21,319 bases of DNA from a virus: positions 1-21,319 of the IMG/VR virus record IMGVR_UViG_3300050821_006147, one strand, 5' to 3'. Made by a program: the position numbers and the translations under genes. Below, in pieces: positions 533 to 20,374 of the stretch; within the stretch, counting starts at the first letter, position 1; each line of letters starts with the position of its first letter. The notes beneath the pieces were generated by a model. The model was not told the origin of the DNA. It did not search any database and saw only the letters and a list, made by a program, of their open reading frames with translations.

Positions 533-714
533 TTGTCACCTATTTCAGACTCGGTTCCATAAAAAGACCTGATCGGACGCCCGCAGCGGATACAAACCAG
601 CATCCCCGTTTCCTCTGGTGTCCTCACCAATATATCCAGGGTCTGCCCGCAATCGGTCTCCCACCCGTCGACGCTCTCGATCCAATCGCAGACCTCATCG
701 AAGCGGTTCAACAC
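529..714 (-). CDS. Small cysteine-containing hypothetical protein (61 aa)
   Basis: Begins at a GTG (714) inside the end of the integrase gene, which stops at 695; a TTG at 711 is an alternative. It carries C9, C21 and a CIRCG motif, so a single metal-binding site is possible. Its stop forms an ATGA overlap with the next gene. No family is recognised. Position directly behind integrase and the tight overlap indicate co-translation with it. Confidence 0.6.
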   Translation of the reverse strand: MLNRFDEVCDWIESVDGWETDCGQTLDILVRTPEETGMLVCIRCGRPIRSFYGTESEIGDK

Positions 715-1543
715 GGCGCATTGCTCTGTCGTAAACGCGGCGAGTCATTTTCACGTCCATGTGCCCAGCCAGCAGATACGCGGCGTCCAGGTTCTTGTTG
801 TCGGAAATGCACTTCGCCCGAATATCGTGAAAATGAAAGCGCTCGTTACCCAACCTGACCCACTTTTGCTGCGTCCGCTGCCACAGTGCCCTGAAGCCAT
901 CTGGCGTGTAGCGCAAACCTTTCTTCTTCAGATTCTTGGGGTTAGTACGGATCACGTACTGGTGCGGCCACATGGGCTCCATGACCCTGGCGCGCTTCAG
1001 GACGGTCTCAATTGCCGGCGAGATCATGATGGCCAGCTTCTTGCCGGTCTTCCCTTGGGTGATCTCAATTCGCCAGTCGGCTCGCGGAACTCCAACCGTC
1101 TTTACCTGCTTCCAGGTCAAGCCGATGATATCTGACTGCCGCTGGCCGGTGAGGAGCGCCAAGTCCATCGCAATCTGTACCTGCGCGCACGCGATAGCGC
1201 GACAGCCGTTGAACTCATCGTCTGTGATGTATCGGTCTCGAGGCCGCGTCGGCCAGCGCTCGACCGCTGAGCAGGGGTTCACCAGGTCGTCGCTGATGCA
1301 CCACCGTCCGATTGCCTTATAGAAAACCATCGATAGCAGCATCACCATTCGGTTGCGGTGAATGCGGCCTTTTTTCACATCGAGGAATGCGGCAACGTGC
1401 CGGGGCTTGATCTCGTGAGGGTCGAAATGGCCAAACTGCTTGCGCAATAACTGGAAGATTCCCAAGTAATCGCGCTTCGTGCGGGGCTGCAAATCTTCCA
1501 TGCACTCTGCGATATAGCGGTCGAAAAGCTCATTCATTGTCAT
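695..1543 (-). CDS. int: Tyrosine-family site-specific integrase (282 aa)
   Basis: Catalyses integration of the phage genome into, and with an excisionase release from, the host chromosome. The catalytic residues are all visible, numbering from the start at 1543: R135 in LTGQRQSD, K165 in TQGKTGK, H239 and R242 in FHFHDIRAK, H261 in LAGHMD and the nucleophile Y271 in RRVYDRA. Residues 1-100 form the SAM-like core-binding domain. A longer frame reaches 1660 and an ATG at 1573 is possible, but the ATG at 1543 has GGAG six bases upstream and gives a normal phage-integrase length. That GGAG lies in a perfect hairpin (1547-1566). Unusually, the gene lies inside the leftward operon with small genes on both sides. 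No att site is identifiable. Confidence 0.93.
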   Translation of the reverse strand: MTMNELFDRYIAECMEDLQPRTKRDYLGIFQLLRKQFGHFDPHEIKPRHVAAFLDVKKGRIHRNRMVMLLSMVFYKAIGRWCISDDLVNPCSAVERWPTRPRDRYITDDEFNGCRAIACAQVQIAMDLALLTGQRQSDIIGLTWKQVKTVGVPRADWRIEITQGKTGKKLAIMISPAIETVLKRARVMEPMWPHQYVIRTNPKNLKKKGLRYTPDGFRALWQRTQQKWVRLGNERFHFHDIRAKCISDNKNLDAAYLLAGHMDVKMTRRVYDRAMRRVEPLR

Positions 1544-1546
1544 TGT

Positions 1547-1566
1547 GATCTCCGTGGTAGGAGATC
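1547..1566 (-). promoter_or_regulatory. Hairpin sequestering the integrase Shine-Dalgarno
   Basis: In the mRNA sense, GATCTCC is followed by a six-base loop and GGAGATC, a perfect 7-bp stem. The GGAG of the stem is the only Shine-Dalgarno for the ATG at 1543, and the stem ends three bases before that ATG. In a folded leader the ribosome site would be closed. The pairing is seen directly; regulation is inference. Confidence 0.55.
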
Positions 1567-1577
1567 GAAGCATACCC

Positions 1578-1677
1578 GCAACCTCTGGTTGCCGAAACAC
1601 TGTAAATACAGATGTTTCATTAAGTTTATGCTCATGCGGTTCGTGGCGACGTAGAAGCATTGATTATGTCTGCTTCT
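1578..1677 (-). promoter_or_regulatory. Structured integrase leader with three more inverted repeats
   Basis: The stretch between the upstream gene and integrase holds three further inverted repeats. They are 1578-1592 (GCAACC, 3-base loop, GGTTGC), 1594-1618 (a 10-bp stem GAAACACTGT/ACAGTGTTTC with one bulged A and an AAAT loop) and 1653-1677 (AGAAGCA, 11-base loop, TGCTTCT). None has a following T tract in the mRNA sense, so they do not look like ordinary terminators. They could be RNA structure controlling int, or integrase/excisionase arm sites in DNA. Confidence 0.45.
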
Positions 1678-3331: not shown

Positions 3332-3736
3332 TTACTGAACCAGCGTTCCGCTTGCGATGTATCGAGGGGCCCGCGGGAAGACGCAGACACGTCCCCCATG
3401 AACACACGGACCTGTTACTTCGCCACCCTCAAAAGTGAGCGTGGCGTAAAGGACGGCGCCCTCACTGTCGTATAGGGGCACGTTGACAAGAACGTCGGAG
3501 CCGTTGCGCGGCAACGCCCAAATACCCGAATCCCAGAAGGTGGAGTTCACGTAGGCGACAAGGCGCCCGTACTGCTTCGCGTAGACCACCAAGATGCTAT
3601 CGCCAGCGTCGTTGGCGACCGGCGAACAGTACGACGCCTGGTCGCACGCGGACTGCTCGAGCGTCACCGTGCCTGCGTTCGCTATCCCCCAACCAAATGA
3701 TCCCATCATCATCAATCCAAGTAGTAAACCCTTCAT
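3332..3736 (-). CDS. Exported small protein with signal peptide (134 aa)
   Basis: The start is the ATG at 3736, eight bases after AGGAG; a longer frame to 3859 overlaps two other genes and is rejected. Residues 1-22 form a signal peptide: MKG, a hydrophobic run LLLGLMMMGSFGWGI, then ANA before GTVTLEQ, consistent with signal peptidase I cleavage after ANA. The mature part is beta-rich with four cysteines in two pairs (CDQASYC and CVHGGRVC), which could form disulfides in the periplasm. It is the only clearly exported product in an operon of DNA-metabolism genes. A role in altering the cell envelope or excluding other phages is speculation. No family is recognised. Confidence 0.75.
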   Translation of the reverse strand: MKGLLLGLMMMGSFGWGIANAGTVTLEQSACDQASYCSPVANDAGDSILVVYAKQYGRLVAYVNSTFWDSGIWALPRNGSDVLVNVPLYDSEGAVLYATLTFEGGEVTGPCVHGGRVCVFPRAPRYIASGTLVQ

Positions 3737-3870
3737 CGAATCACTCCTTTTGTTGAAAACTGAAATCCATATTCGTAGCCGTGCATCGCTTTGAATCGCT
3801 CGGCGGTCGCCGCGCAGATCGTTTCGCCGGATGGCAGCGTGATCAGTGGCCGCCCGCATTCGCAGTTCAT
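3733..3870 (-). CDS. Tiny cysteine-containing protein (45 aa)
   Basis: Begins MNCECGRPLITLPSGETIC and ends QFSTKGVIR. C3, C5 and C19 suggest a partial metal site. The gene is fixed by overlaps on both sides: its ATG shares ATGA with the methyltransferase stop, and its stop overlaps the start of the exported protein. The end of the gene carries the AGGAG used by that next gene. Function unknown. Confidence 0.65.
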   Translation of the reverse strand: MNCECGRPLITLPSGETICAATAERFKAMHGYEYGFQFSTKGVIR

Positions 3871-5375
3871 GCGACCTCCGCTGTTTGGATTTGTTGCTCG
3901 ATCACATTCGATTTGACGAGCGCCTCAGCCATCACGGGCGGCACGGCGTTACCGATCATCCAAACCTGATCCGTCTTCGTCAGTGGTTTGCCGTTGTAGA
4001 TTGGATCGAGAATGTAGGAATCCTTGAAGCTCGTTGCGCGGGCGAGTTCGCGCGGCTGCAGCATTCGCATTGCGATGTCGGCGATGCGGTACGTCTCTCC
4101 GCGCACCACGACCAGGCCGAAACGATCTTTGCTGGTGATGGTATCGAGCGGACGTTCTAGGCCGGGATTCTGGTCAGTCCCATAATATTTCATCAAAAAG
4201 GCGCGAACTTCCCCGAAGTGCGTACCTTGGGCGCTGAGAGTTTGAAGCGGCTCATCGACGCTCTGCCCGACATTGTCGCCGCGCAATTTCACGATGTGCG
4301 AAGAAACTAGCGCGTGATGATCTTGCGTCGTGATAGTGAAGAGTGGGGACTGCATGGGTTGGCCGTCGTTCTCGTGGCCGCCGTAGTGACGAGCGAGGAA
4401 AGCGGCGACCAGCGCATGCTTCTGGCCGCCACCTACCACGGTACCCAACGGCTTGTGCAGATCGAGTGTCCGCGGGGCCTGGCCGTCTCGCTCGCCGTAA
4501 CCAGTCTGGATCAGTGTCGGCGATATGAGGGCCAATTCACCGCGATGGGCGCCCGTGATTGTGGGCAGTGGCTCATCCATCATATGCGCTCTGCGGTCGC
4601 CCTGATGCGTCAGCGGCACGATGAAGGGACTGGCTGAGTTCACCACATAGCGCATAATGCCCCGCGCGATCCGGCGTAAGGTCGCATCGGCAAGGGGCTT
4701 ATCGCGCTCGAATATCGATGGGCATGGAAGCGACCAGTCGATGCATTCCGCGGCAGTGCGATAGGGGAGGGCGCCCGGGCCATGCGAACTCTCGGGGAAT
4801 ATGATCTCCCGGCCATCGCAGCGCGCGATAACGAACAGCCTTTTGCGCGAGGTCGGCGCGCCGTAGTCGCATGCCCTGAGTTCCCGCATATCGACCTGAT
4901 AGCCTAGATTCTCTAACTGGCGATGCCACTTGCGGAACGTCATACCGCGGCGAACCTTGCATCGCGTGCCATCCGGCAGCAGCGGACCCCAGTCTTTTAG
5001 CTCCGTAACATTTTCGAGCATAATGACGCGCGGTCGCCGCATCTTGGCCCAGTGGGTCACCGTCCATGGCAGCCCACGGACGCGACGTGCGCGGTTGACA
5101 TCCCTGAACGGCTTGCCGCCGCGAGCGGAACTGAAATAGGTGCAGTCTGGCGAGAACCACGCCAAGCCAATGGGGCGGCCCGGCCCCACCGTGCGCGGGT
5201 CCAGGTTCTGCATATTCTCTTGCAGATGGACCGTGCGCGGATGATTGGCCTTGTGGACGGCAATCGCCTTTGCGTTATGGTTGATGGCGTAATCGACAGG
5301 CTTGCCAAGGGCGGTCTCAATACCCTCGCTCGCCCCGCCGCCGCACGCAAAATTGTCGACGTTGATCTCAATCAA
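3867..5375 (-). CDS. C5-cytosine DNA methyltransferase (502 aa)
   Basis: Transfers a methyl group from S-adenosylmethionine to carbon 5 of cytosine in DNA. Motif I is FACGGGASEG (residues 9-18), motif IV is SPDCTYFS with catalytic C78, motif VI is ENV (about 121-123), motif VIII is SRKRLFVIAR (about 177-186) and motifs IX/X end in GNAVPP (475-480). Between VIII and IX there are five PLxT(I/V/L)(T/S/V) repeats at about 269, 309, 344, 376 and 409, spaced 32-40 residues, probably building the target-recognition region. There is no ATG before motif I. The TTG at 5375 is chosen because it sits eight bases after GGGAG and makes a TTGA overlap with the reverse transcriptase stop. No cognate restriction enzyme is visible, so protection of phage DNA from host restriction is the likely role. 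Confidence 0.92.
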   Translation of the reverse strand: MIEINVDNFACGGGASEGIETALGKPVDYAINHNAKAIAVHKANHPRTVHLQENMQNLDPRTVGPGRPIGLAWFSPDCTYFSSARGGKPFRDVNRARRVRGLPWTVTHWAKMRRPRVIMLENVTELKDWGPLLPDGTRCKVRRGMTFRKWHRQLENLGYQVDMRELRACDYGAPTSRKRLFVIARCDGREIIFPESSHGPGALPYRTAAECIDWSLPCPSIFERDKPLADATLRRIARGIMRYVVNSASPFIVPLTHQGDRRAHMMDEPLPTITGAHRGELALISPTLIQTGYGERDGQAPRTLDLHKPLGTVVGGGQKHALVAAFLARHYGGHENDGQPMQSPLFTITTQDHHALVSSHIVKLRGDNVGQSVDEPLQTLSAQGTHFGEVRAFLMKYYGTDQNPGLERPLDTITSKDRFGLVVVRGETYRIADIAMRMLQPRELARATSFKDSYILDPIYNGKPLTKTDQVWMIGNAVPPVMAEALVKSNVIEQQIQTAEVA

Positions 5376-6607
5376 GAGCAAATCTCCCGAAGATATGGAA
5401 ACTCAGAATGGAAGCGCTCCAGTAACCTCCGGCTGTTCGCGTGCCGAAAATGGCCGCGGTAGCTCGCCCAGATTGAGCGGAGCGATTCCCCGCGGGCTGC
5501 GCGTAGCTTCTGTCGCGCATGCCCGATCACGCGGCGGCGGACCACAGAATGTGTCGGATAGATGACGTAACCCAGGAAATCGCAGCCAGCGCTCAGGGAT
5601 TTCAGCTTAATATCGGCCTTGAGTTCCAATCGGAGCCGCTGTCGCAGAAAGGCCTCTATCTGAGCCTGCCAGGCTTGCAACTGCTCACGGCTCTTGTGCA
5701 CGATGACAAAGTCGTCTACGTACCGAACATAGCGCTGGGCCCGTAGGTCGTGCTTCACGAATTGATCTAACGCGTCCAGGTAGACATTAGCGAAGAACTG
5801 GCTGGACAGATTGCCGATAGCGAGACCACAGCCGGGCGCGGCATTCTCCAGTCGCTTATGTGCCGGTACCTGCGCAAGCTCGGTAGCCGTCCCGACATAG
5901 TGAACGCCGTGGGCGATGGGTGAATTCCGCAGCAGAGCGTGCGTGGCGCGGCGTGCGGTCTCGGGAAGTGCGTAACGCTCCATCCGCTTCTTGAGCATGG
6001 CGTAGAGCGTCGGACGGTGAATGCTGTTGAAGAAATTGCGGATGTCCAGTTGCAAATACCATCCGCCACCCTGGCCCGAATGCACCTGGCGAATGAACCC
6101 GCGCAGCCGATCTACCGCTGCGTGGGTGCCCTTGCCGACTCGGTTCGAGAAGCTGTCATGGATGAATGAGCGCTCGTAGATTGCTTCCAGTTGCGGCACC
6201 AGCCAGTGATGCACGACGCGATCTAAGAGCGGTGGCGCGTGGATCTCTCTGGCTTTCGGCGCTATGGCAACAAAGCATGTCGGCTTCCCCGGCGTCCACG
6301 TCATGGCGTTCAACTGCCGCTGCAGAGCCAGCAGGTTGTCCATCCAGCGACTGTCGAAGGTCAGTTGATCGGTACTTGGCTTCTTTCCGCGCCGCGTCCG
6401 GCGCCAAGCGGTGTGGAGGGAGCGGAAACTGACCGTTGCGCGACACTCACCGGCACGGACCGCGCGGACGAAATTGTGATTGCTCTGATGATTCCGATTG
6501 GAATTGCCATCGTTGAGGTAGACCATCCACGCGTAGTCCGAGGGAGACGCTATCTCGGGTACTTTCGACCCCGCCTCACATCCAAATGGGTAGAGAGGCA
6601 TCGTCAT
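5372..6607 (-). CDS. DGR reverse transcriptase with TR-encoded N-terminus (411 aa)
   Basis: Error-prone reverse transcriptase that copies the TR RNA into cDNA for insertion into a VR. Core motifs are LQLDIRNFF (185-193, first catalytic Asp D188), IGNLSSQ (264-270) and YVDD (296-299). SQ in place of the SP of retroviral and intron enzymes is the DGR-RT hallmark. The thumb region has GCDFLGYVIYPTH (341-353). Similarity to the Bordetella phage BPP-1 enzyme starts near residue 60 (SFRSLHTAWRRTRRGKK), but residues about 20-55 are the translated TR. The ATG at 6607 has GAGG seven bases upstream and an ATGA overlap with avd. No in-frame ATG, GTG or TTG occurs between the TR and the conserved box, so the TR seems to be translated as part of the protein. 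Confidence 0.95.
   Translation of the reverse strand: MTMPLYPFGCEAGSKVPEIASPSDYAWMVYLNDGNSNRNHQSNHNFVRAVRAGECRATVSFRSLHTAWRRTRRGKKPSTDQLTFDSRWMDNLLALQRQLNAMTWTPGKPTCFVAIAPKAREIHAPPLLDRVVHHWLVPQLEAIYERSFIHDSFSNRVGKGTHAAVDRLRGFIRQVHSGQGGGWYLQLDIRNFFNSIHRPTLYAMLKKRMERYALPETARRATHALLRNSPIAHGVHYVGTATELAQVPAHKRLENAAPGCGLAIGNLSSQFFANVYLDALDQFVKHDLRAQRYVRYVDDFVIVHKSREQLQAWQAQIEAFLRQRLRLELKADIKLKSLSAGCDFLGYVIYPTHSVVRRRVIGHARQKLRAARGESLRSIWASYRGHFRHANSRRLLERFHSEFPYLREICS
6446..6548 (-). repeat. DGR template repeat (TR)
   Basis: About 103 bp that align without gaps to VR1 (7060-7162) and VR2 (7654-7754). In the coding sense it has 21 adenines in the 100-bp core, concentrated in six AAY codons plus GAC, TAC, ATG, CAT, CAG, AGC and CAC. 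Every VR difference in the core falls on one of these adenines. The last 25 core bases (6449-6473, coding FVRAVRAG) contain no adenine in the coding sense and are identical in all three copies. At 6448 the TR has C (+ strand) where both VRs have G. No single or combined adenine change in the TR can produce a stop codon. It lies inside the reverse transcriptase reading frame. Confidence 0.96.
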
Positions 6608-7029
6608 GGTATTGCCTCATGGGCGACCCGAGAACTCAGTATCTGGGCGCGCTGGGTAGGTGATGCCTTCCCATTCTGGCCCTTCGCAACCGAATTCAGC
6701 CACCCTCCACACCGCGCGCCCAACTCATTGACGAGGCGTGCAACCGCCTCGAATTCCTTGAAACTACCAAAGGCATTGACATCCTTACCTAGCTGCACCG
6801 AGTCCTTGAGTTCATCGATTGCTGCTGAAAATTCGCGCACGCGGTCATGCCTCTGTTGGCTATCCCGCCACGCTCGGACAGCCGAACGAATCACCAGCCG
6901 CGCGTCCGCCCGCAGGTCGGCCCCGATCGAATATTTGTGATATCGCGGAAAGCGCATCACAGCATTCTCGATGGCGGCACCGACGCGCTGCGCGAGACGA
7001 ACGATTTGCGGCAAGTTCCTAAACATCAT
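6604..7029 (-). CDS. avd: DGR accessory variability determinant, Avd-like (141 aa)
   Basis: In characterised DGRs Avd is a basic pentameric four-helix-bundle protein that binds the reverse transcriptase and nucleic acid and is needed for template-primed cDNA synthesis. This protein is of matching size, helical and basic. It shows the family's marks FPRYHKYSIG (27-36), IDELKDSVQLGKDVNAF and, near residues 100-111, NELGARCGGWLN. It lies between the first target and the TR/RT, the usual place. The start has two successive ATGs (7029, 7026), nine bases after the target stop and without a clear Shine-Dalgarno, so translation may be coupled. The stop shares ATGA with the reverse transcriptase. Confidence 0.9.
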   Translation of the reverse strand: MMFRNLPQIVRLAQRVGAAIENAVMRFPRYHKYSIGADLRADARLVIRSAVRAWRDSQQRHDRVREFSAAIDELKDSVQLGKDVNAFGSFKEFEAVARLVNELGARCGGWLNSVAKGQNGKASPTQRAQILSSRVAHEAIP

Positions 7030-7038
7030 CGGTTCTGC

Positions 7039-7605
7039 TCAGAGGCCAAGGGCCAAAGGCTGACCGGCACGGACCGCGCGGACGAAAGCGTGATTGCTCT
7101 GAGGAGCCCGAAGGGAATAGCCATCGCCGAGGTAGACCACCCACGCGAAGACCGAGGGAGACTTGGCAAGAGTGCTGGTCCAACTCCAGCCATGGTCGCC
7201 ATCAAAGTAGGCCGTATCTAACGCTGGCTCATACCGCTCGTAATCAACAATCGACAATTGCTCGCGTATTGTCGGGGCACGCCAATCGCTCTTGCCGAAT
7301 AGACGCATATTGCCGGCTGCCTTCATGGCGTCGGCCCAGGGCACTGCGCCGCAGTCGAGGACCTTGCGGGTCCATGTCAGATCGTGCGCGCTGTCGTATA
7401 CCGCAACCCAGTCGGTAACAGAATCCGCGACATACTGACCGTGCAGATCAATCTTTGTGAAACGCGGCCGGACAACGGTTGACGGGCGGGTGATCCGATC
7501 CTCGTTGGCGCAAATCGCGCTCGCCAGCGCAAGCATGTCGGCGGCGGAGGCGTGGGCGAGGCGTTGCGTGATGAGAGCTCGGATATCGGTAGCAAAAGCG
7601 TTCAT
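7039..7605 (-). CDS. DGR target protein 1, DUF1566-type variable domain (188 aa)
   Basis: Residues 1-45 form a helical N-terminal segment (DIRALITQRLAHASAADM) not present in target 2. From residue 65 the protein follows the DUF1566/Lcl C-terminal pattern: AVYDSAHDLTWTR, DWRAPTIREQLSI, then WSWTSTL and, at the end, FVRAVRAG. In DGR systems this C-type-lectin/FGE-like fold displays the variable residues on a ligand-binding face. VR1 encodes residues about 149-182. Seven residues follow the VR. There is no signal peptide or membrane segment, so the protein is cytoplasmic unless it goes into virions. ATG at 7605 follows AGGGA. Confidence 0.92.
   Translation of the reverse strand: MNAFATDIRALITQRLAHASAADMLALASAICANEDRITRPSTVVRPRFTKIDLHGQYVADSVTDWVAVYDSAHDLTWTRKVLDCGAVPWADAMKAAGNMRLFGKSDWRAPTIREQLSIVDYERYEPALDTAYFDGDHGWSWTSTLAKSPSVFAWVVYLGDGYSLRAPQSNHAFVRAVRAGQPLALGL
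7060..7162 (-). repeat. DGR variable repeat 1 (VR1) in target 1
   Basis: Aligned to the TR core over 100 bp it has 13 differences, all at TR adenines (coding sense). The + strand differences are at 7088, 7089, 7103, 7106, 7107, 7112, 7113, 7119, 7127, 7128, 7140, 7148 and 7151. They change D24, Y25, M28, N32, N35, N37, N39, H40 and N45 of the TR peptide to V, F, V, G, Y, L, A, P and A. The adenine-free 3' end is unchanged. Downstream in the coding sense lies a short GGCC/GGCC inverted pair with a 3-base loop, too weak to call as the hairpin known from other DGRs. Confidence 0.95.
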
Positions 7606-7647
7606 GTCTTAGTCCCTGTTGGGTTGGGTGTGGGAATGCCAAAAAAC

Positions 7648-8076
7648 CTAGAACTGACCGGCACGGACCGCGCGGACGAAATCGTGATAGCCCTGATGAG
7701 CCCGACCGGAATAGCCATCGCCGAGGTAGACCATCCACGCGTAGCCCGAGGGAGGGGAGGCATCTAGTGTCGAGGTCCAATTCCACTCGTACCCAGCAAA
7801 GTCCGGGAAGAAGCTCGGATCAATCGCCGGATACTTGGCGCGATCGGGCAGGAAAAATGATTCTTCGACAGTCGGCGCGCGCCAGGCCCAGCCGTTGATA
7901 TCCAAGCTCTCGGCCCATTTCATGGCTTGCTTGTAAGTCAACTCTTTCGGCGAGTGATACGCCGTGAAGATGAGCGGCTTGGCGAGCAGAGGATGCTCGA
8001 TGCGCACGGCTTGGTGTCCGGTGGCGTCAGCCGATAAGTCCGTGCCGTCCGCGCCGAGTTTCGTATAGGTAGTCAT
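7648..8076 (-). CDS. DGR target protein 2, DUF1566-type variable domain (142 aa)
   Basis: A shorter target, almost entirely the lectin-like domain: VRIEHPLLAKPLIF, LTYKQAMKWAESLD, AWRAPTVEESFFLPD, YEWNWTSTL and the terminal FVRAVRAGQF. VR2 encodes residues about 107-141, ending two codons before the stop. It lacks the helical N-terminus of target 1, and the two are clearly diverged outside the VR, so they are not a recent duplication. The ATG at 8076 forms a TGATG overlap with the stop of the Ref-like nuclease and has AGGAG eight bases before it; a TTG one codon upstream is possible. No signal peptide. Confidence 0.9.
   Translation of the reverse strand: MTTYTKLGADGTDLSADATGHQAVRIEHPLLAKPLIFTAYHSPKELTYKQAMKWAESLDINGWAWRAPTVEESFFLPDRAKYPAIDPSFFPDFAGYEWNWTSTLDASPPSGYAWMVYLGDGYSGRAHQGYHDFVRAVRAGQF
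7654..7754 (-). repeat. DGR variable repeat 2 (VR2) in target 2
   Basis: Aligned to the TR core over 98 bp it has 11 differences, all at TR adenines. The + strand differences are at 7683, 7689, 7692, 7700, 7701, 7706, 7707, 7713, 7721, 7722 and 7745. At the protein level D24, N32, N35, N37, N39, S42, N43 and N45 of the TR become G, G, Y, G, A, G, Y and D. It ends two codons before the stop of target 2. Confidence 0.95.
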
Positions 8077-8393
8077 CAAATCGTCTCCTGTGTTGAAATC
8101 ATTCCATTGACCTTCGCCAGCAATTCGCGCTGGCTGCCGAAGAACGCATGGAACGGTTTTGAACCGTCAGCGAGCGAGGGGCCGAAAAAGCTATTGCCGT
8201 TGCCGTTGCCGCGGTGGTGAAATTCACACAGACAAAGCGTGCTCTTGTTGCCGCCGCTCAGTCGCCGGTAACCCTTATCGACGATGTGGTGAATGTCGCC
8301 AGGGACGCCGGGGATGCCCAGTATCAAGCAGCAGATGCAGCCGATGTCTTGCAGCTTGCGGTAGCGGGCGAGGTCGGCTTTGGAGGCGCTCAT
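8076..8393 (-). CDS. Ref-like RecA-dependent HNH nuclease (105 aa)
   Basis: The pattern C19-IC-C22, IHH (34-36), LCLCEFHH (53-60), RGNGNGN and, near the C-terminus, FHAFFGSQRELLAKV matches the phage P1 Ref family (recombination enhancement function). Members are HNH-type nucleases that cut DNA at RecA-coated D-loops or displaced strands. H35/H36, C54 and H59/H60 are the likely metal and catalytic residues. The ATG at 8393 (MSASKADLAR) is chosen because it shares ATGA with the upstream stop; a longer frame to 8432 would run back into that gene. Its stop overlaps the start of DGR target 2. Loss of one expected zinc ligand cannot be excluded by eye. Confidence 0.72.
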   Translation of the reverse strand: MSASKADLARYRKLQDIGCICCLILGIPGVPGDIHHIVDKGYRRLSGGNKSTLCLCEFHHRGNGNGNSFFGPSLADGSKPFHAFFGSQRELLAKVNGMISTQETI

Positions 8394-8710
8394 ATGTTCC
8401 CGCGCTTGCTCGCACTGAACTGGCTGCGCCACACTTCGATGGTCATCTCGGCAGCATCGCGCTGCGCCCTAAGCGTCTCGGCATCGGCGACCGCGTTTTG
8501 CAGACCCTCAAGCCCCGCCAGGTACTCACCGGAGGCATAGGCGGCGGCTTCCCTGTCCACCCCTGACCCAGGCTTGCCGACCATTTGCAGCGCCTTCACG
8601 CGACGCAGGTTCCCTTCGCAGAAGGCAACATGACCGCGAGCTTTGCCGTAGGCTTTGGCCGTATCGCGCATGAACTCGACGGCCTTTTCGACGCGCTCCT
8701 CGGCGATCAT
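8390..8710 (-). CDS. Conserved phage hypothetical protein, helical (106 aa)
   Basis: Begins MIAEERVEKAVEFMRDTAKA and ends IEVWRSQFSASKRGNI. The opening, the central EYLAGLEGLQNAVADAE and the terminal TIEVWRSQ match an uncharacterised helical protein commonly found beside phage recombination genes. The ATG at 8710 overlaps the stop of the HTH gene; a longer frame to 8806 would cover that gene and is rejected. Probably a coiled-coil partner of the recombination proteins, by position only. Confidence 0.75.
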   Translation of the reverse strand: MIAEERVEKAVEFMRDTAKAYGKARGHVAFCEGNLRRVKALQMVGKPGSGVDREAAAYASGEYLAGLEGLQNAVADAETLRAQRDAAEMTIEVWRSQFSASKRGNI

Positions 8711-9602: not shown

Positions 9603-10762
9603 GACGCCTTCACCTGAAAGCCCCAGTCGATCTTCAGCACCCACTGCAAAGCTACCTTCTCGGTAACCCCGTAGTGCTGTGCGATCACCGCCACAATCTC
9701 GATCCCGCTCGGTGCCTTGCGCGGTTTCGGCTTCGGTAGATTCGCAATGCGCAGTTCTTCCTTCTGCCTGTCGATTTCGACCTGTTGCGCGGCGATGCGC
9801 GCAGCCTCGGCGGCGTACACGGCATTGAGGCGTGATTCCTCGGTAGCGATTCGCTCGCGCTCCGCCCTGATTTCCTCCGCATGAACTCGCGCCGCTTCAA
9901 CCTGTTTCTCACGCTCCGCGTCTCGCTCAGCCCTGGCGACAGCCTCTAGCCTGTCACGTTCGGCTTTTGCGAGTAGTTCCAGCCTGTCACGCTCTGCCTG
10001 CGCTTCCGCATCGCGCTTGTCCTGTTCGGCTCGCAGCTTGGCCAACTCGGCGCGCTGCTGTTTGATGAGCTCCTGTTCTTCCTGATGGGCAACCGCAGCA
10101 ACGTGCAGTTTCCACAGCTTCAACAGGGCGGTTGCTTTGACGTCAGCGGCTTGGGACTGGAACTCGGCGAAGCTGTCGTCGACTTGGGTGCGCTCCAGGT
10201 CGTTGATGTGGTCCATGATGAGACCGGCGCCGCTGGTGGGGCTGAGCGTTTGGCAGCCGCGCAGTTCGGCGATGCGCTCTTGGATGGCGGCTACCCTTGC
10301 CACTTCGGCCGCAATTTTCGCTTCGCGCTCTCTCTCTTTGATGGCATCCCAATCATCGCGGATCTTGGCGAGGCGCGTTTCCTCTGGGGTCATCAGGGCC
10401 ACCAACTCATTCTCAATGGAGATGACCGCTTTCGAGTATCTGACCGCCTCTTCCCGACCGACCTTCCCGGCCTTCTGCGTCTCAATCCGCATGTTCCGCA
10501 GGGCCATCAGCGCATCGTGGCAAACCTCGCGGCTGGCCGCATCCGTGACCGCTACGATGGGCTTGGACTGCTCGACCAACTCCTTGATGCGGATCTCGAC
10601 TTCCGCCTTGCTCAGGGCCTTGGATGCGCGCTCGACGAGCGACATCGGCTTGACCGTGACGGCGACAAACTCGCCGCACAGGAGGCATTCGCCGTCGTCG
10701 CCCGTATTAGTGTGGGTGCATGCGACGACGAGGCTGCTGTAGTTTTCATCGACGGCGAACAT
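9599..10762 (-). CDS. Long coiled-coil protein of the recombination cluster (387 aa)
   Basis: The N-terminus has a possible zinc site (C15, H17, CLLCG at 26-30). Residues about 50-200 are helical, and about 215-340 form a long charged coiled coil with imperfect repeats (AERDRLELLAKAERDRLEAV and AERDAEREKQ). The DNA repeats the matching 33-bp unit near 9948 and 9979. The C-terminus after PKPKPRKAPSG is a small domain (EIVAVIAQHYGVTEKVALQW) that looks like an HTH. It starts with a TAATG overlap with the exonuclease stop. By position it may be a partner of the exonuclease/annealase pair; no enzymatic motif is visible. Confidence 0.78.
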   Translation of the reverse strand: MFAVDENYSSLVVACTHTNTGDDGECLLCGEFVAVTVKPMSLVERASKALSKAEVEIRIKELVEQSKPIVAVTDAASREVCHDALMALRNMRIETQKAGKVGREEAVRYSKAVISIENELVALMTPEETRLAKIRDDWDAIKEREREAKIAAEVARVAAIQERIAELRGCQTLSPTSGAGLIMDHINDLERTQVDDSFAEFQSQAADVKATALLKLWKLHVAAVAHQEEQELIKQQRAELAKLRAEQDKRDAEAQAERDRLELLAKAERDRLEAVARAERDAEREKQVEAARVHAEEIRAERERIATEESRLNAVYAAEAARIAAQQVEIDRQKEELRIANLPKPKPRKAPSGIEIVAVIAQHYGVTEKVALQWVLKIDWGFQVKAS

Positions 10763-11370
10763 TAGGCGGCCCTCTTGTAGTTGCGGATTTTGGCGACCTT
10801 GGCGTCGAGCTCGGTGATGAAGTCATCGACCTCGACTTTGATTCGAGCGATGTACGCTTCGTCGCGGACAACGCGCTTAACGAACAACGGTAGGCTCGGA
10901 CAATAAGAAACGAAGTCCAGCCATTCGCGGCCTGAAACCCACAAGCCGCCTTGGCACTGCTGAACGTGTTCGCTCGGCACCTTGTCGGCTTCCAGGCATT
11001 CAATATGCAGATGGTCAAGCTTCGTCTTGATTTCCACCAAACCAGCGGTGCCGACCAGTCCATCAGGGCTGTACCCGGCACGCCCGCGCCTCATGAACCC
11101 GATCTGCTGCACCTCGTTGTCGGTTATGAACGTGTACAGATTGCGGGCCTCGTCTTCCTCGGTATGCCCGCGGTCCATGTGATCGTTGGTGTAGCGCTCG
11201 AACGGCTGGCCGCGCACGATCTCGCCCGCCAGCGTGCGCATATACTTGGCGCGCGTCTTGCCCTCGCCCTTGGCCATGACGGATTTCAGTTCCGACGCCG
11301 TTACCAGCCCGAGCCGGCATTGCAGCCATTCAGGGCTTCCCTGGAGACAATCGAAAATCTGGAGTTCCAT
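10762..11370 (-). CDS. YqaJ/lambda-type phage exonuclease (202 aa)
   Basis: Degrades one strand of double-stranded DNA from ends, producing single strands for the annealing protein. The family layout is visible: GSPEWLQCRLGLVTASE (11-27), RGHTEEDEAR (67-76), catalytic D103 in GYSPDG, E113 and K115 in LVEIKTK, and QQCQGGLWVSG (137-147) as the following helix with conserved Gln. The ATG at 11370 overlaps the stop of the ERF gene (TAATG). A frame to 11640 exists, but its extra 90 residues are antisense-like and lie inside erf, so it is rejected. Together with ERF this is a two-component single-strand annealing system like lambda Exo/Beta. Confidence 0.9.
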   Translation of the reverse strand: MELQIFDCLQGSPEWLQCRLGLVTASELKSVMAKGEGKTRAKYMRTLAGEIVRGQPFERYTNDHMDRGHTEEDEARNLYTFITDNEVQQIGFMRRGRAGYSPDGLVGTAGLVEIKTKLDHLHIECLEADKVPSEHVQQCQGGLWVSGREWLDFVSYCPSLPLFVKRVVRDEAYIARIKVEVDDFITELDAKVAKIRNYKRAA

Positions 11371-12125
11371 TATTTGGGCCTCTTCGATTCGAGAGCCGAC
11401 TTCGCCGTGGCGTAGCTGGCCACCAGGATCTTGTCCAGAGAATCGACCTTGAGGAATGTCAGGAACTTCGCTTTGTCCGCGCCGACAGCCGTGATGAGCG
11501 TTTCGAGTTCCTTCAACTGACCGGGGCCGATGGTTTCCGGTTTGTCGTCGTCTCCATCGGTGCGGTCGTCGGCATCCGGTAGATCGGCTGAGGTAAGCCC
11601 AGTCGCGGCGATTAGCGTGTACCGCTGCAGGAGCGTACATGTCGACGCGACCGCTTGAATCGCGCTCTTGCTACCGGAGTCATCCGGCGGTGCGGTCATT
11701 GCGACGGAGTCGGAGTGCCCTAGCGCATGCGTGATAACGCACGTCACGGTGATGAGTCCCTTGTCCTGCACGATGTTCCAGCGGTGCGAGAGCCCGTGCT
11801 GACCGAGGGCACCAGCAATCTTCTCGACTACCTCGCTGTGGGTCGCGTGGTCGTATTCGGTGAGTCCCCCGCTTTTGTTGCGGAACGCGACATGCTTGTT
11901 TTTGAATATCTTCGGCGGGTCGGCTTTGAACGCCGCCATCGCCACCATGTACGCCTTGCGCGCCTCGGTCGCTTCCCATCGCTCCTTGACCTCGAGCAGC
12001 TGCATCAGTCGCGCCGGGTCGAAGTTCGGATCGGTGGCGGCACGATCAATGATCGCCATCAGCGCGCCGACGTCGGAGGCTGGCGGCTGGGGCCTGGGTT
12101 CTATCTTGGTCACTGCGTTACTCAT
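11370..12125 (-). CDS. erf: ERF-family single-strand DNA annealing protein (251 aa)
   Basis: Anneals complementary single strands during phage recombination, working with the exonuclease encoded next. The ERF core runs from FKADPPKIFKNKHVAF through GGLTEYDHATHSEVVEKIAG, a glycine-histidine segment (LGQHGLSHRW) and ITVTCVITHALGHSD to the conserved SAIQAVASTCTLLQRYTL. The C-terminal 60 residues are acidic then helical. ATG at 12125 follows GAGGGA; a GTG at 12155 that overlaps the upstream stop (GTGA) is a possible alternative start. Confidence 0.92.
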   Translation of the reverse strand: MSNAVTKIEPRPQPPASDVGALMAIIDRAATDPNFDPARLMQLLEVKERWEATEARKAYMVAMAAFKADPPKIFKNKHVAFRNKSGGLTEYDHATHSEVVEKIAGALGQHGLSHRWNIVQDKGLITVTCVITHALGHSDSVAMTAPPDDSGSKSAIQAVASTCTLLQRYTLIAATGLTSADLPDADDRTDGDDDKPETIGPGQLKELETLITAVGADKAKFLTFLKVDSLDKILVASYATAKSALESKRPK

Positions 12126-12151
12126 AATTCCCTCGTCGTTGTTGTCGATAA

Positions 12152-12325
12152 TCACTTGACGTCAGATCCCACGTTGAAACGCGGGGTAATGCGATACCTG
12201 TAAAGGTCTTTGTTCGAAATGAATTTCTCTGATCGCGAAGAGACGTAGGTGTATGCCCAGACGATCGCACCGAAGACGAGCGCGCAGAGAATCAAGGCGG
12301 CTTGCCAACCCATGTCACCGTTCAT
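12152..12325 (-). CDS. Small single-span membrane protein (57 aa)
   Basis: Begins MNGDMGWQAALILCALVFGA, with a single hydrophobic segment (about 8-25) followed by a basic, polar tail ending PRFNVGSDVK. An N-out or N-in orientation cannot be decided. The ATG at 12325 shares ATGA with the stop of the 12322-12492 gene, and its stop overlaps a GTG upstream of erf. The function is unknown. It is one of four tiny membrane proteins in this operon. Confidence 0.65.
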   Translation of the reverse strand: MNGDMGWQAALILCALVFGAIVWAYTYVSSRSEKFISNKDLYRYRITPRFNVGSDVK

Positions 12326-14028: not shown

Positions 14029-14114
14029 CAGTACTTCGAGATGAAGTGGAAGATGACGTACACGAGGCTGAGTTGAACCAGCACCGCGATGAGTACGAGC
14101 AGGATGCTTTTCAC
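14025..14114 (-). CDS. Tiny membrane protein (29 aa)
   Basis: MKSILLVLIAVLVQLSLVYV followed by IFHFISKYW: almost wholly one membrane segment with a basic start and an aromatic end. The GTG at 14114 shares GTGA with the HTH gene stop, and its own stop shares GTGA with the next start. A non-coding filler would not be expected to fit so exactly between two overlaps. Confidence 0.5.
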   Translation of the reverse strand: MKSILLVLIAVLVQLSLVYVIFHFISKYW

Positions 14115-14344
14115 GTTTGATCGCTCCCGTAGGCTAGGAATTGCAGGCTCACGCCGAGAACGGCCGCGAGTTGGAGGAACGTTTTGAGCTTGATGCCCGC
14201 GCCGTTACCGGCTTCCCACTGGACGACGGCGCTTTTGGTAACGCTGCACGCAACGGCCAAGGCGCCCTGCGACATATCGAGCGCTAAGCGCTGGCGGCGG
14301 ATGCGCGCGCCCATCTGGGTGAAGAGGTCTTTGTCGGTGAACAT
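14111..14344 (-). CDS. Small Xre/Cro-type HTH regulator (77 aa)
   Basis: Residues 10-68 form an HTH_3 domain: GARIRRQRLALDMSQGALA, CSVTKSAVVQWEAG and FLQLAAVLGVSLQFL. It contains the pattern of a recognition helix after SQGALA, as in C1/Cro family regulators. It is the second gene of the leftward operon and may be a Cro-like or delayed-early regulator distinct from the repressor at 14935-15615. ATG at 14344. Confidence 0.88.
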   Translation of the reverse strand: MFTDKDLFTQMGARIRRQRLALDMSQGALAVACSVTKSAVVQWEAGNGAGIKLKTFLQLAAVLGVSLQFLAYGSDQT

Positions 14345-14934: not shown

Positions 14935-15615
14935 TTACCGCCTCGAGCTGGGCGGAACAATCGTCGTGACTTGCACGACGCGCCCAATGATTTGGGCATC
15001 CTCCGGTAGCGGGGCTATCGGATAGCGGGTATTGAGCGGCTTCAAAAAGCGCTGCTGCCCGTCGAATTCTAGAATCTTGAAAACGGCGTCCGCTGCCGTC
15101 GCCAGAAGCACCACTACCGCGTCGCCTGGCTGCGTCTCCGCGGTGGGATCGACCACAATGATGGCTCCATCGGGGTAGCCGGTACCGGTCGCCGTATCGA
15201 CCATGCTATCGCCCCTCACGCGTAAGCCGAATGCGCCAACCCCTACAGAATCCGAAGCAAAGATAACAACCGTATCCTCCATAGGATCATCGAGAATTGA
15301 TTCCATTCCGCCTCGCCTCCTAACCTGATCCCATCTGATGACCGGCACTCGACGAGTGCGGCCGACACCGGGATCGGTGTTGGTTGATGACGGCGAGGAG
15401 GAGTGATCGAGATCCATCCAACCCGCCGGCCGTTTCATGACGGCTTCGATACTACGCGCTGTTTTGTATCCCATGGGACGGGGGGCACGCGTGCCGGGGG
15501 TGTGAATCTGGGACAGGTAGTTCGGTTTTTTGCCGAGCGCGCGGGACAGGTCCGCCTTGCTGATCTCCTTGAGCAACGTCTCTAAATTCGCCAGGCGGAT
15601 AGTGCGGATGTCCAT
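14935..15615 (-). CDS. C1-type repressor, HTH plus S24/LexA-like domain (226 aa)
   Basis: Maintains lysogeny by binding operators at the two early promoters. Residues 1-65 hold an HTH domain (KADLSRALGKKPNYLSQI); 85-226 form an S24 peptidase-like domain with GDSM (catalytic S137) and K180 in DAVFKIL, plus the motif YPDGAIIVVDP. About 34-37 residues before S137 the expected Ala-Gly or Cys-Gly cleavage pair is replaced by a RRRGGM stretch, so the cleavage bond is unclear. The ATG at 15615 is used; a frame to 15933 would overlap the control region and cro. No strong Shine-Dalgarno precedes it. Confidence 0.92.
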   Translation of the reverse strand: MDIRTIRLANLETLLKEISKADLSRALGKKPNYLSQIHTPGTRAPRPMGYKTARSIEAVMKRPAGWMDLDHSSSPSSTNTDPGVGRTRRVPVIRWDQVRRRGGMESILDDPMEDTVVIFASDSVGVGAFGLRVRGDSMVDTATGTGYPDGAIIVVDPTAETQPGDAVVVLLATAADAVFKILEFDGQQRFLKPLNTRYPIAPLPEDAQIIGRVVQVTTIVPPSSRR

Positions 15616-15633
15616 ATGTCTATCTTCGCCGAC

Positions 15634-15650
15634 ATTACTTTTCTCGTAAA
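15634..15650. promoter_or_regulatory. Second operator near repressor start
   Basis: ATTACT, five bases, CGTAAA: a degenerate copy of the 17-bp operator, centred 27 bases before the repressor ATG. It would overlap a possible minus-strand repressor promoter (TTAAAC, 17 bases, AGTAAT), allowing autoregulation. Recognised by comparison with the sites at 14619-14635 and 15683-15699. Confidence 0.5.
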
Positions 15651-15672
15651 TTGGCTGTTTAAGTAATGCTGC

Positions 15673-15701
15673 TTGCGTCGTAGTTACTTTTTGAGTAAGC
15701 T
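15673..15701 (+). promoter_or_regulatory. Rightward early promoter (PR-like)
   Basis: -35 TTGCGT (15673-15678), 17-bp spacer, -10 TAAGCT (15696-15701). Predicted start near 15708, only about four bases before the Cro ATG at 15712. Its layout matches the leftward promoter base for base over most of the spacer. Confidence 0.6.
15683..15699. promoter_or_regulatory. Operator OR, 17-bp inverted repeat
   Basis: GTTACT, five bases, AGTAAG. It overlaps the spacer and -10 of the rightward promoter, and matches 16 of 17 bases of the reverse complement of the OL site at 14619-14635. Presumed repressor/Cro site. Confidence 0.75.
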
Positions 15702-15711
15702 GCTTCCCCTT

Positions 15712-15963
15712 ATGAAGCTCCACGAATATCTCAAGTCCCTCTCCGAGGCCGAATTTACCGCCCTCGCCGAGCGCGCAAAGATCGCGCCCAGTTACCTCAT
15801 TCAGTTGAGGTGTCATACCGAAAACCAGAAGCGGCTTGGCAAGCACCCTTCGGCAAAGCTCAGCGTGAAGCTCGCCAGTCTCACCGGCGGTGCCGTGACT
15901 CTCGCAGAGCTTCGCCCCGATCTCTGGGGCCATGGCGTTGCTCGCCTGATCGAGAGCGCATGA
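15712..15963 (+). CDS. Cro-like YdaS-type HTH protein (83 aa)
   Basis: Opposes the repressor and starts the rightward operon. Residues 14-60 show the helix pattern ALAERAKIAPSYLIQLR followed by HPSAKLSVKLASLTGGAVTL and LRPDLWG, typical of the YdaS/Cro family of phage antirepressor-like proteins (A.. PSYL.QLR....PSA.L...IE...G.VT...LRPD.W). The ATG at 15712 is chosen over an upstream start at 15673, which lies in the promoter. No Shine-Dalgarno is visible and the predicted transcript starts only a few bases before, so translation may be leaderless. Confidence 0.88.
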   Translation: MKLHEYLKSLSEAEFTALAERAKIAPSYLIQLRCHTENQKRLGKHPSAKLSVKLASLTGGAVTLAELRPDLWGHGVARLIESA

Positions 15964-18036: not shown

Positions 18037-18611
18037 AGACGCGCAGCAGACGCGACGATGGGGTTTTCGCAGCGGAAGGGGCAGCGGCGGCGAAAGCGGC
18101 TGGCGAGAAGCATTACGTTTCAAATCGACCGTGCCCACAGGGCCACATCGGCAAGCGATTCGTTTCCAACAACGGGTGCGCCGAATGCCTCCGTTCGCAG
18201 TGCAAGCAGTACTACCACCGCAACCACGAGGTAATGCGAAGGAGAAATAGCGAGTGGGCGAAGAAAAACCCCGCCAAAAATTGCGCCCGCGCTCGCGCTT
18301 GGTATCACAGGTCACCAGAAAATAAAGCCAAAACCTTTGTGTATCGCGACCAATGGCGCTTGGAAAATCCCGAGCGCGTCAACGCGTCTAGTCGGCGCGC
18401 TTCCGCCCGTCGGCGGTGCAGGACCGTTACCCCGGCATGGGCGGACAGGGCGGCGATCGACAAGATTTACGCAGATTGTCCGCCAGGCATGGAGGTCGAT
18501 CATATCGTGCCGATTCAGGGCAAGAACGTGTGCGGACTCCATGTCGAAACCAATTTGCAGTACCTAACAAAATCAGCAAATTCAAGCAAGGGGGCGAAGT
18601 GGGAGCCTTAA
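18033..18611 (+). CDS. HNH endonuclease-type protein (192 aa)
   Basis: An N-terminal zinc-knuckle-like region (CPQGHIGKRFVSNNGCAEC, followed by C and H residues) precedes a basic helical part. The HNH core lies at the C-terminus: MEVDHIVPIQG, GLHVETNLQYLT and N..KG. The DHIVP...N..L...N.xK pattern is the ββα-metal nuclease motif. ATG at 18033 shares ATGA with the initiator. Phage HNH genes at such positions may be homing or free-standing nicking enzymes. Its last 13 bases overlap the start of the primase-helicase. Confidence 0.85.
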   Translation: MKTRSRRDDGVFAAEGAAAAKAAGEKHYVSNRPCPQGHIGKRFVSNNGCAECLRSQCKQYYHRNHEVMRRRNSEWAKKNPAKNCARARAWYHRSPENKAKTFVYRDQWRLENPERVNASSRRASARRRCRTVTPAWADRAAIDKIYADCPPGMEVDHIVPIQGKNVCGLHVETNLQYLTKSANSSKGAKWEP

Positions 18612-20374
18612 AGACTTGGGCTGATTTCGGCATTGATATCCCATCCGGAAGATCCGGCGAGATTGATTTGACGTGCCCGAAGTGTTCGCCGCAACGCAAA
18701 AAGAAGAATGCCCGCTGCCTCTCAGTGAATGTGGAGAAAGGCGTATTTTCGTGCGCCCACTGCGGTTTTTCTGGTGGATTGCTCGAGGGCGCCCACCAAA
18801 ACGAGCCAGCCTGGCGCAAACCGATCTATCGCAAACCCTCCGCGTTCAAGCCCAAGGAGGACGGTGGCGTTTTCGAATGGCTGCAAACCCGCGGTGTCTC
18901 GGAAGCCATAGCCAAGCGCAACGGCGTCACGGCTGCGCGCGTGTACATGCCTCAGGTGGAGGAGGAAGTCACCGCCATGGCGTTCCCGTACCACCGCAAC
19001 GGCGAACTGGTGAACGTCAAGTACCGTGATCGCCAGAAGAACTTCCGCATGGAGGCCGGAGCGGAGCGGATCCTGTACGGCTTCGATGACATCGACGACG
19101 AGCGGTGCGTCATCGTTGAGGGTGAAATCGACAAACTGTCCATTGAGATGGCCGGCATTACGAGCTGCGTCAGCGTTCCGGATGGAGCCCCCACCCCCAA
19201 CACGAAGGACTACGCCAGCAAGTTCGTTTTCCTGGACAACGACTGGGAGCGCCTAGAGCGGGTCAAGCAATGGGTCATAGCCGTCGACAACGACCCCCCT
19301 GGCTTGCGGCTTGAGGAGGAGCTTACGCGCCGCCTAGGCATCGAGAACTGCCTGCGGGTCACATGGTCGAGTGATTGCAAAGACGCCAATGACGTGTTGC
19401 GGTCCTTCGGTCCGGCGGTACTCGCGGAGTGCATCGCAAATGCCCAGCCGTACCCGATCAAGGGCGTCATCACGGTCGGCGACATCTCCCGCGAGATCGA
19501 CCGGCTATACGCCGAGGGCGTCAAACCCGGCTGTTCGACGGGTTGGAAGTCGCTCGATGAGTATTACACCGTCCGCCTGGGCGAGATGACCGTAATTACG
19601 GGCGTTCCAAATTCCGGAAAAAGCAATTGGCTGGACGCGCTGCTGGTCAATCTGGCTCATCAGCACGAATGGCGCTTCGCGATTTTCTCCCCCGAGAACC
19701 AGCCGATCCAGAACCATATTTCGCGGCTGATGGAGCACCACTCCCGCATGCCGTTCCGCGACGGCCCGACGCCGCGTATGGACTTCGCGCGGATGACGCT
19801 CGAGAAGGAATGGTTGGCCGCTCACGTGCAATTCATGTTGCCCGAGGACGAGTCGGACTGGTCGGTCGAGTGGATCCTGAAGACCGCGGCAATCCTTGTG
19901 CGGCGCACCGGCATCAACGCTCTGGTGATTGATCCCTGGAACGAGATCGAGCAGCAGCGGCCGAAGGGCATGACCGAAACCGACTACGTGTCCTCATGCC
20001 TGCGCAAGATTCGCCAGTTCGGCCGGCGCACCAAGACGCATATTTTCATCGTCGCGCATCCGCAAAAAATGTACCGCGACAAGTCCGGAGAGTACCCGGT
20101 CCCGACTCTCTATGACATATCCGGATCAGCTCACTGGAGGAATAAAGCGGACAACGGAATCGTGGTGTTCCGCGACATCAACGAACCCGATAAGCCGGGC
20201 GTTGAGATCCATGTGCAGAAGATTCGCTTTCGTGAAATCGGCAAAGTTGGAGGTGTCGAATTGAAATACGACAAAGTGACCGGCGGTTACTACGACTGGA
20301 TCCGCCCCAAGTCCCTGCCATCGCAGGCCAATAGGGAAACGGATGAGGAGAAACCAGCGTGGTGGAACCAGTGA
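18599..20374 (+). CDS. Bifunctional primase-helicase (591 aa)
   Basis: Synthesises primers and unwinds DNA at the phage fork. The N-terminal zinc domain has CPKC (26-29) and CAHC (52-55). A TOPRIM fold follows, with CVIVEGEIDK (170-179, E174) and AVDNDPPG (228-235). The DnaB/T7 gp4-type helicase has Walker A GVPNSGKS (335-342) and Walker B ALVIDPWNE (441-449), then HIFIVAHPQK and the arginine-rich end of the ATPase. The GTG at 18599 follows AGGGGG and gives a protein of gp4-like size; the longer frame from 18416 lies within the HNH gene and is rejected. It overlaps the HNH stop by 13 bases. Confidence 0.93.
   Translation: MGALKTWADFGIDIPSGRSGEIDLTCPKCSPQRKKKNARCLSVNVEKGVFSCAHCGFSGGLLEGAHQNEPAWRKPIYRKPSAFKPKEDGGVFEWLQTRGVSEAIAKRNGVTAARVYMPQVEEEVTAMAFPYHRNGELVNVKYRDRQKNFRMEAGAERILYGFDDIDDERCVIVEGEIDKLSIEMAGITSCVSVPDGAPTPNTKDYASKFVFLDNDWERLERVKQWVIAVDNDPPGLRLEEELTRRLGIENCLRVTWSSDCKDANDVLRSFGPAVLAECIANAQPYPIKGVITVGDISREIDRLYAEGVKPGCSTGWKSLDEYYTVRLGEMTVITGVPNSGKSNWLDALLVNLAHQHEWRFAIFSPENQPIQNHISRLMEHHSRMPFRDGPTPRMDFARMTLEKEWLAAHVQFMLPEDESDWSVEWILKTAAILVRRTGINALVIDPWNEIEQQRPKGMTETDYVSSCLRKIRQFGRRTKTHIFIVAHPQKMYRDKSGEYPVPTLYDISGSAHWRNKADNGIVVFRDINEPDKPGVEIHVQKIRFREIGKVGGVELKYDKVTGGYYDWIRPKSLPSQANRETDEEKPAWWNQ

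Follow-up and report, generated by a model that had tools for sequence, protein, structure and literature searches.

A phage diversity-generating retroelement with two small lectin-fold targets in the early operon

The window, a 21.3-kb IMG/VR virus fragment (21,319 nt) analysed over its whole length, carries a diversity-generating retroelement (DGR) in the leftward early operon of a temperate phage, between the CI-like repressor and the integrase. The phage is probably a Xanthomonadales phage. The usual explanation of phage DGRs is that they diversify tail fibres. The DGR of the window belongs to a large, actively mutating family in temperate Xanthomonadales phages that has relatives in phages of Pseudomonas, Burkholderia and Shewanella. 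The targets of this family lie outside the virion module and lack export signals, suggesting that another selection acts on their hypervariable binding surfaces, probably inside cells. Our tentative reading, held at slightly less than even confidence, is that the targets are early-expressed, non-virion, cytoplasmic variable binders for host-phage or phage-phage conflict. Several members of the family are isolated phages, so that the binding of non-tail DGR targets is directly testable. The features of the window are as follows.

695 to 1660, minus strand: tyrosine integrase (Pfam Phage_integrase, 1.2e-11)
3867 to 5381, minus strand: C5 cytosine DNA methylase, downstream of the reverse transcriptase (Pfam DNA_methylase, 3.3e-22)
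5372 to 6607, minus strand: DGR reverse transcriptase (RT) frame, true start codon uncertain (phrog_1423, E 4.9e-98)
6446 to 6546, minus strand: template repeat (TR), 101 nt
6604 to 7029, minus strand: avd, accessory variability determinant (phrog_3206, E 2e-14; Pfam bAvd 9.4e-8, below its cut-off)
7039 to 7605, minus strand: target 1 (T1), 188 aa, N-terminal helical hairpin and lectin fold (Lcl_C)
7060 to 7160, minus strand: VR1, variable repeat of T1
7648 to 8076, minus strand: target 2 (T2), 142 aa, nearly bare lectin fold (Lcl_C)
7654 to 7754, minus strand: VR2, variable repeat of T2
8076 to 8432, minus strand: Ref-like RecA-dependent nuclease, directly upstream of T2 (Pfam RecA_dep_nuc, 1.4e-11)
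10762 to 11640, minus strand: YqaJ-type exonuclease, start uncertain (Pfam YqaJ, 5.3e-21)
11370 to 12155, minus strand: ERF single-strand annealing protein (Pfam ERF, 3.7e-11)
14111 to 14344, minus strand: HTH protein
14935 to 15933, minus strand: CI-like repressor, start uncertain (Pfam Peptidase_S24, 1e-16)
18416 to 20374, strand opposite to the minus-strand DGR operon: replication genes Toprim/DnaB

The 101-nt repeat is present in three copies, starting at 6446 (TR), 7060 (VR1) and 7654 (VR2), and the two variable repeats differ from the TR almost exclusively at its adenines (13 of 14 mismatches in VR1, 11 of 12 in VR2). The sole non-adenine mismatch is the same G>C close to the 3' end of each VR, as expected for IMH versus IMH*. 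No third VR was found in the 21.3-kb window. Both VRs lie at the 3' ends of genes whose products have a lectin fold according to Lcl_C matches, AlphaFold2 models and a fold search, and the RT, which is accompanied by Avd, groups with known DGR RTs. The element is thus a real DGR, and the adenine-specific mismatches confirm T1 and T2, which fill the span given in the earlier note (7039 to 8076), as its targets. Assignment of the RT as an antiviral reverse transcriptase (DRT) was rejected, the best DRT score being 47.3 bits against an NCBIfam cut-off of 200. The RT match starts at about residue 57 of its frame, past the TR. The frame stays open across the TR in 58 of 59 loci, and TR and VR share a reading frame in all 50 loci scored. 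In the window, where the frame starts on the avd stop codon, translation of the RT might include an N-terminal segment encoded by the TR.

The minus-strand order is CI-like repressor, HTH protein, ERF, YqaJ, several small genes, Ref-like nuclease, T2, T1, avd, TR, RT, C5 methylase, small genes and integrase. The ATG start of T2 overlaps the Ref stop codon (TGATG), T2 and T1 are separated by 42 nt and T1 and avd by 9 nt, and avd overlaps the RT frame, which begins on the avd stop codon (ATGA). The DGR genes and targets therefore share a strand with ERF, YqaJ, Ref, the methylase, the integrase and the CI-like repressor. Lambda-like phages have their leftward early operon at this position. A promoter scan of the window gave no promoter-like site and terminator counts were lower than in shuffled sequences, leaving the transcript borders unplaced; the early-operon assignment is based on strand, spacing and neighbours. 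The DNA-metabolism location that had been claimed for the targets agrees with the strand shared with ERF, YqaJ and Ref and with the overlap between T2 and Ref, and this layout suggests that T1 and T2 are co-transcribed with the recombination genes. Further along the operon, downstream of the methylase, an internal start in the frame of a small protein (3332 to 3859, minus strand) gives MKGLLLGLMMMGSFGWGIANAG, a likely signal peptide. This protein has no Pfam, PHROG or NCBIfam match and is possibly an exported lysogeny factor.

Both targets match Pfam Lcl_C (PF07603) above its gathering cut-off of 34.9 bits (T1, E 1.5e-23, 83.7 bits; T2, E 5e-12, 46.6 bits). The structure prediction that the earlier note had proposed was run with AlphaFold2, and the models agree with its description of an extra N-terminal helical part on T1 and a nearly bare lectin-like T2. 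In the T1 model (pLDDT 91.5), helices 2-18 and 21-37 form a hairpin and the lectin fold begins at about residue 49, and the T2 model (pLDDT 95.1) is an almost bare lectin fold. The closest solved structure in the fold search is the C-terminal domain of Legionella Lcl (PDB 8q4e), with a Z score of 13.0 and an r.m.s.d. of 4.4 over 119 residues for T1, and 12.2 and 3.0 over 115 residues for T2. T1 also matches the DGR variable proteins Mtd (Z 9.1) and TvpA (Z 9.0). A search of PADLOC-DB with T1, T2 and Avd gave no match at E 1e-3. An alignment of 57 proteins showed a conserved lectin core (e.g. W142, W155, V178 and R179) and a variable N-terminus, which is helical in the nearest kin of the window and, judged by eye, strand-like in many others. 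The helical extension may make T1 multimeric. A bare target and a longer, N-terminally extended target occur together in 18 of the 27 scored multi-target loci, with the gene order swapping between lineages. The pairing hints at a hetero-oligomer or a two-part function; a rule of always one bare and one extended target was rejected on the same count.

Searches with T1 gave no close homologues in viral contigs (peptide patterns) or in named phages (tblastn), and relatives were therefore gathered with the RT as bait. The RT search returned 67 viral-contig loci and 27 genome loci, the closest genome loci being those of Dyella, Rhodanobacter, Stenotrophomonas, Xanthomonas, Pseudoxanthomonas, Lysobacter and Arenimonas. 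Most of the loci have one to four targets with adenine-specific VRs, the target frames being assigned by similarity. Homologous targets with at least 90% identity outside the VR were compared in 56 pairs, which are not independent because loci recur among them. Differences affect 830 of 1285 TR-adenine positions (65%), compared with 10 of 4809 positions elsewhere in the VR (0.2%) and 1383 of 19882 in the rest of the gene (7%). This very large contrast is seen for both target types. Judged from this natural variation, both targets are actively diversified in the relatives.

No tail genes were seen in the window, and the claim that the targets do not lie with tail genes was examined in the relatives. 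Terminase was found in 22 of 45 contigs, always on the strand opposite to the DGR (22/22) and 10.5-29 kb away, as the claim would have it. Tape-measure or sheath genes lie 19-30 kb away and on the opposite strand in 20 of 21 cases, the sole same-strand exception being a contig that carries three integrases. The median distance between integrase and DGR is 6.2 kb, and the neighbours of the DGR are repressors, recombination nucleases, methylases and integrases. The recombination genes near the DGR vary between relatives while the targets stay. Twenty-five contigs, many near full length, were scanned for VRs in pieces with their own TR, some contig ends not being covered, and all VRs detected are on the strand of their TR and upstream of it, within ~7 kb; in two further contigs the TR was absent from the pieces fetched. 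In more than ten contigs and in Burkholderia phage Magia, an extra target is detached from the cassette by 1.3-5.4 kb or more and still lies in the early region, so that the targets themselves seem to be tied to the early region, beyond their linkage to the cassette. A target among tail genes in a late operon, as for Mtd, was not the arrangement in the relatives, where targets lie on the opposite strand and far from terminase and tail genes. The non-tail, early/DNA-metabolism placement is thus well supported as a conserved property of a large family. The C5 cytosine methylase (window 3867-5381) recurs beside the DGR in relatives. One relative, locus L044, encodes downstream of its RT (5192 to 7003, plus strand) a 603-residue protein with collagen-like Gly-X-Y repeats, notable in that Lcl_C takes its name from an adhesin of collagen-like type.

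The early layout is also found in six named isolates, Burkholderia phage Magia, Shewanella phage QDWS and Pseudomonas phages Cruim01, Haboob, phPA-G and LPPA56, all of which have two or three small targets. The gene order of QDWS runs targets, avd, RT, cytosine methylase, host nuclease inhibitor and integrase, and a DNA methyltransferase is annotated in QDWS, Cruim01 and Haboob. Gp46 of Magia (10807 to 11271 of locus L073) is a third VR target that is not marked so in the annotation. In tail-type DGRs (BPP-1, VP58.5, ACA1, BalMu-1, ZX4290, phiARM81mr and 1F273_PE002), a single larger target lies next to tail genes. The RT tree places nine of ten tail-type RTs in one branch (100/98), the early type of the window in a second (100/99) and the early type of Pseudomonas, Burkholderia and Shewanella in a third (100/99); the tenth tail-type RT, that of Bacteroides F2, has a very long branch. 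The position of the root decides between one and two origins of the early-type DGR.

Export signals were sought in 101 targets, comprising T1, T2 and 99 homologues from 53 loci including the window. None has a membrane-like 19-mer near the N-terminus, a lipobox or a twin-arginine (Tat) motif. A looser signal-peptide screen was added because the 19-residue hydrophobicity test alone misses short signal peptides; both are simple screens, the looser one having seven positive controls (six E. coli signal peptides and one from the window). It flagged T1 and three related T1-type homologues, only for helix 2 of the predicted hairpin, in which the uncharged run is 10 residues compared with 15-18 in the controls. 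None of the 101 targets thus carries a convincing signal peptide or membrane anchor, in line with what had been noted for T1 and T2, and this suggests that the targets are intracellular. From such sequence features, we consider a cytoplasmic location probable.

In the mechanism that we propose, the RT and Avd would mutate TR copies at adenines, and the mutated copies would overwrite the ends of the two tandem genes. The products would be small soluble lectin-fold proteins, one bare and one with the N-terminal helical extension, presumably made early or on induction alongside the recombination genes and remaining in the cytoplasm rather than becoming tail parts. The pair of binding surfaces would then differ from one phage or lysogen clone to the next, and selection would favour surfaces that hold on to a rapidly changing partner, for instance an anti-phage factor of the host or a protein from a rival phage. 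These two kinds of partner are our leading guess because a hypermutated binding face pays mainly when its partner changes. That the partner is a conflict protein we hold with a little less than even confidence. The repressors, recombination nucleases and methylases beside the DGR are also the neighbours of counter-defence genes such as lambda gam and ral. Counting against our overall reading, the targets match no PADLOC model, their fold is shared with extracellular adhesins and Mtd, early genes can encode virion proteins, and the transcript borders are unplaced.

Were the targets virion proteins, they would be synthesised early and join the particle during assembly as small decorations or tail-tip adaptors with a lectin fold, and the DGR would tune adsorption as in BPP-1. 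Mtd and TvpA share the fold of the targets, some viral Lcl_C/DUF1566-like structures belong to tail fibres, and phage DGR targets of known role are mostly tail proteins (PMC8144416). However, in practically every contig the targets are distant from the virion genes and on the other strand, and they have no tail-attachment domain, while separate tail fibre genes are present elsewhere. The tails themselves differ among the contigs, with a contractile sheath in two, a tape measure of another family in 19 and siphovirus-like tail genes in one checked contig; a single target family accompanying both siphovirus-type and myovirus-type tails argues against the targets being a tail part. A decoration role is thus less likely, indeed unlikely in our estimate, and we think it likely that the targets are not virion receptor-binding proteins.

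The targets could instead leave the cell by an unrecognised route or at lysis and act outside, for example by coating cells or capturing other phages. The nearest fold, the Legionella Lcl adhesin domain, and the mostly surface-located cellular DGR targets (PMC8144416) would fit, but the 101 targets lack signal peptide, lipobox, Tat motif and membrane segment, the hydrophobic stretch of T1 being part of its hairpin, and we judge such a role improbable. Coupling of the targets to Ref, ERF and YqaJ, downstream of a CI-type repressor, would suit adaptors of Ref, ERF or the repressor that act on the phage's own recombination or regulation and not in conflict, and regulators are reported among cyanobacterial DGR targets (PMC7517822). 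Yet conserved own proteins would not reward near-complete randomisation of a binding face, with 65% of sites differing between close relatives, and the persistence of the targets beside changing recombination genes also speaks against this role, which we regard as distinctly improbable. Cytoplasmic variable binders for conflict remain our preferred reading. A broader proposal, which we put forward as doubtful, is that an early-operon DGR is maintained by temperate phages from two or more RT lineages and gives each lysogen clone its own cytoplasmic variable binders, often one bare and one extended. Such clonally diversified recognition would be directed at competing phages or the defences of the host and would be a phage-borne analogue of variable-receptor immunity.

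In published descriptions, viral DGR targets are mostly tail proteins, with no function known for many (PMC8144416; PMC6199706), and the open-access literature searched, which leaves out most subscription journals, holds no description of an early-operon, non-virion class of phage DGRs. The Mtd DGR of Bordetella phage BPP-1 resembles that of the window in its target-avd-TR-RT order, its adenine-specific VR at the gene end and its lectin-fold target. However, Mtd is one larger tail protein encoded beside tail genes, whereas the window has two small early-operon proteins, and the two RTs are on separate branches. The Magia DGR (PMC7883833) has, like that of the window, early-region lectin-fold targets with RecT/exonuclease, avd, RT and integrase, but its RT belongs to a different branch (100/99) and its targets have no recognisable sequence identity to T1 and T2. 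Magia is a myophage, and its authors noted the short targets and proposed a host-range change without a test (PMC7883833). The DGR of Stenotrophomonas sp. SKA14 shares with the window several DUF1566 (Lcl_C) targets and a Xanthomonadales host; it was reported as a genome DGR, and the portion of that report available to us discusses neither an early-operon prophage location nor a function (PMC6642488). Legionella Lcl, whose C-terminal domain (PDB 8q4e) is structurally closest to T1 and T2, is a secreted collagen-like adhesin, whereas T1 and T2 have no export signal or collagen part. DGR-based immunity has already been proposed (PMC10053308; PMC10907252), and the cellular DGR antigen sensors and immunity systems put forward there resemble the role proposed here in that DGR-made diversity would serve conflict, not adhesion. 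Those systems are mostly cellular and tied to NACHT-type or other immune domains, whereas no defence effector was seen in the family of the window, whose targets are small stand-alone proteins in prophages. It is the early-module location together with small soluble targets, usually two, that sets the DGR of the window apart from tail-type DGRs.
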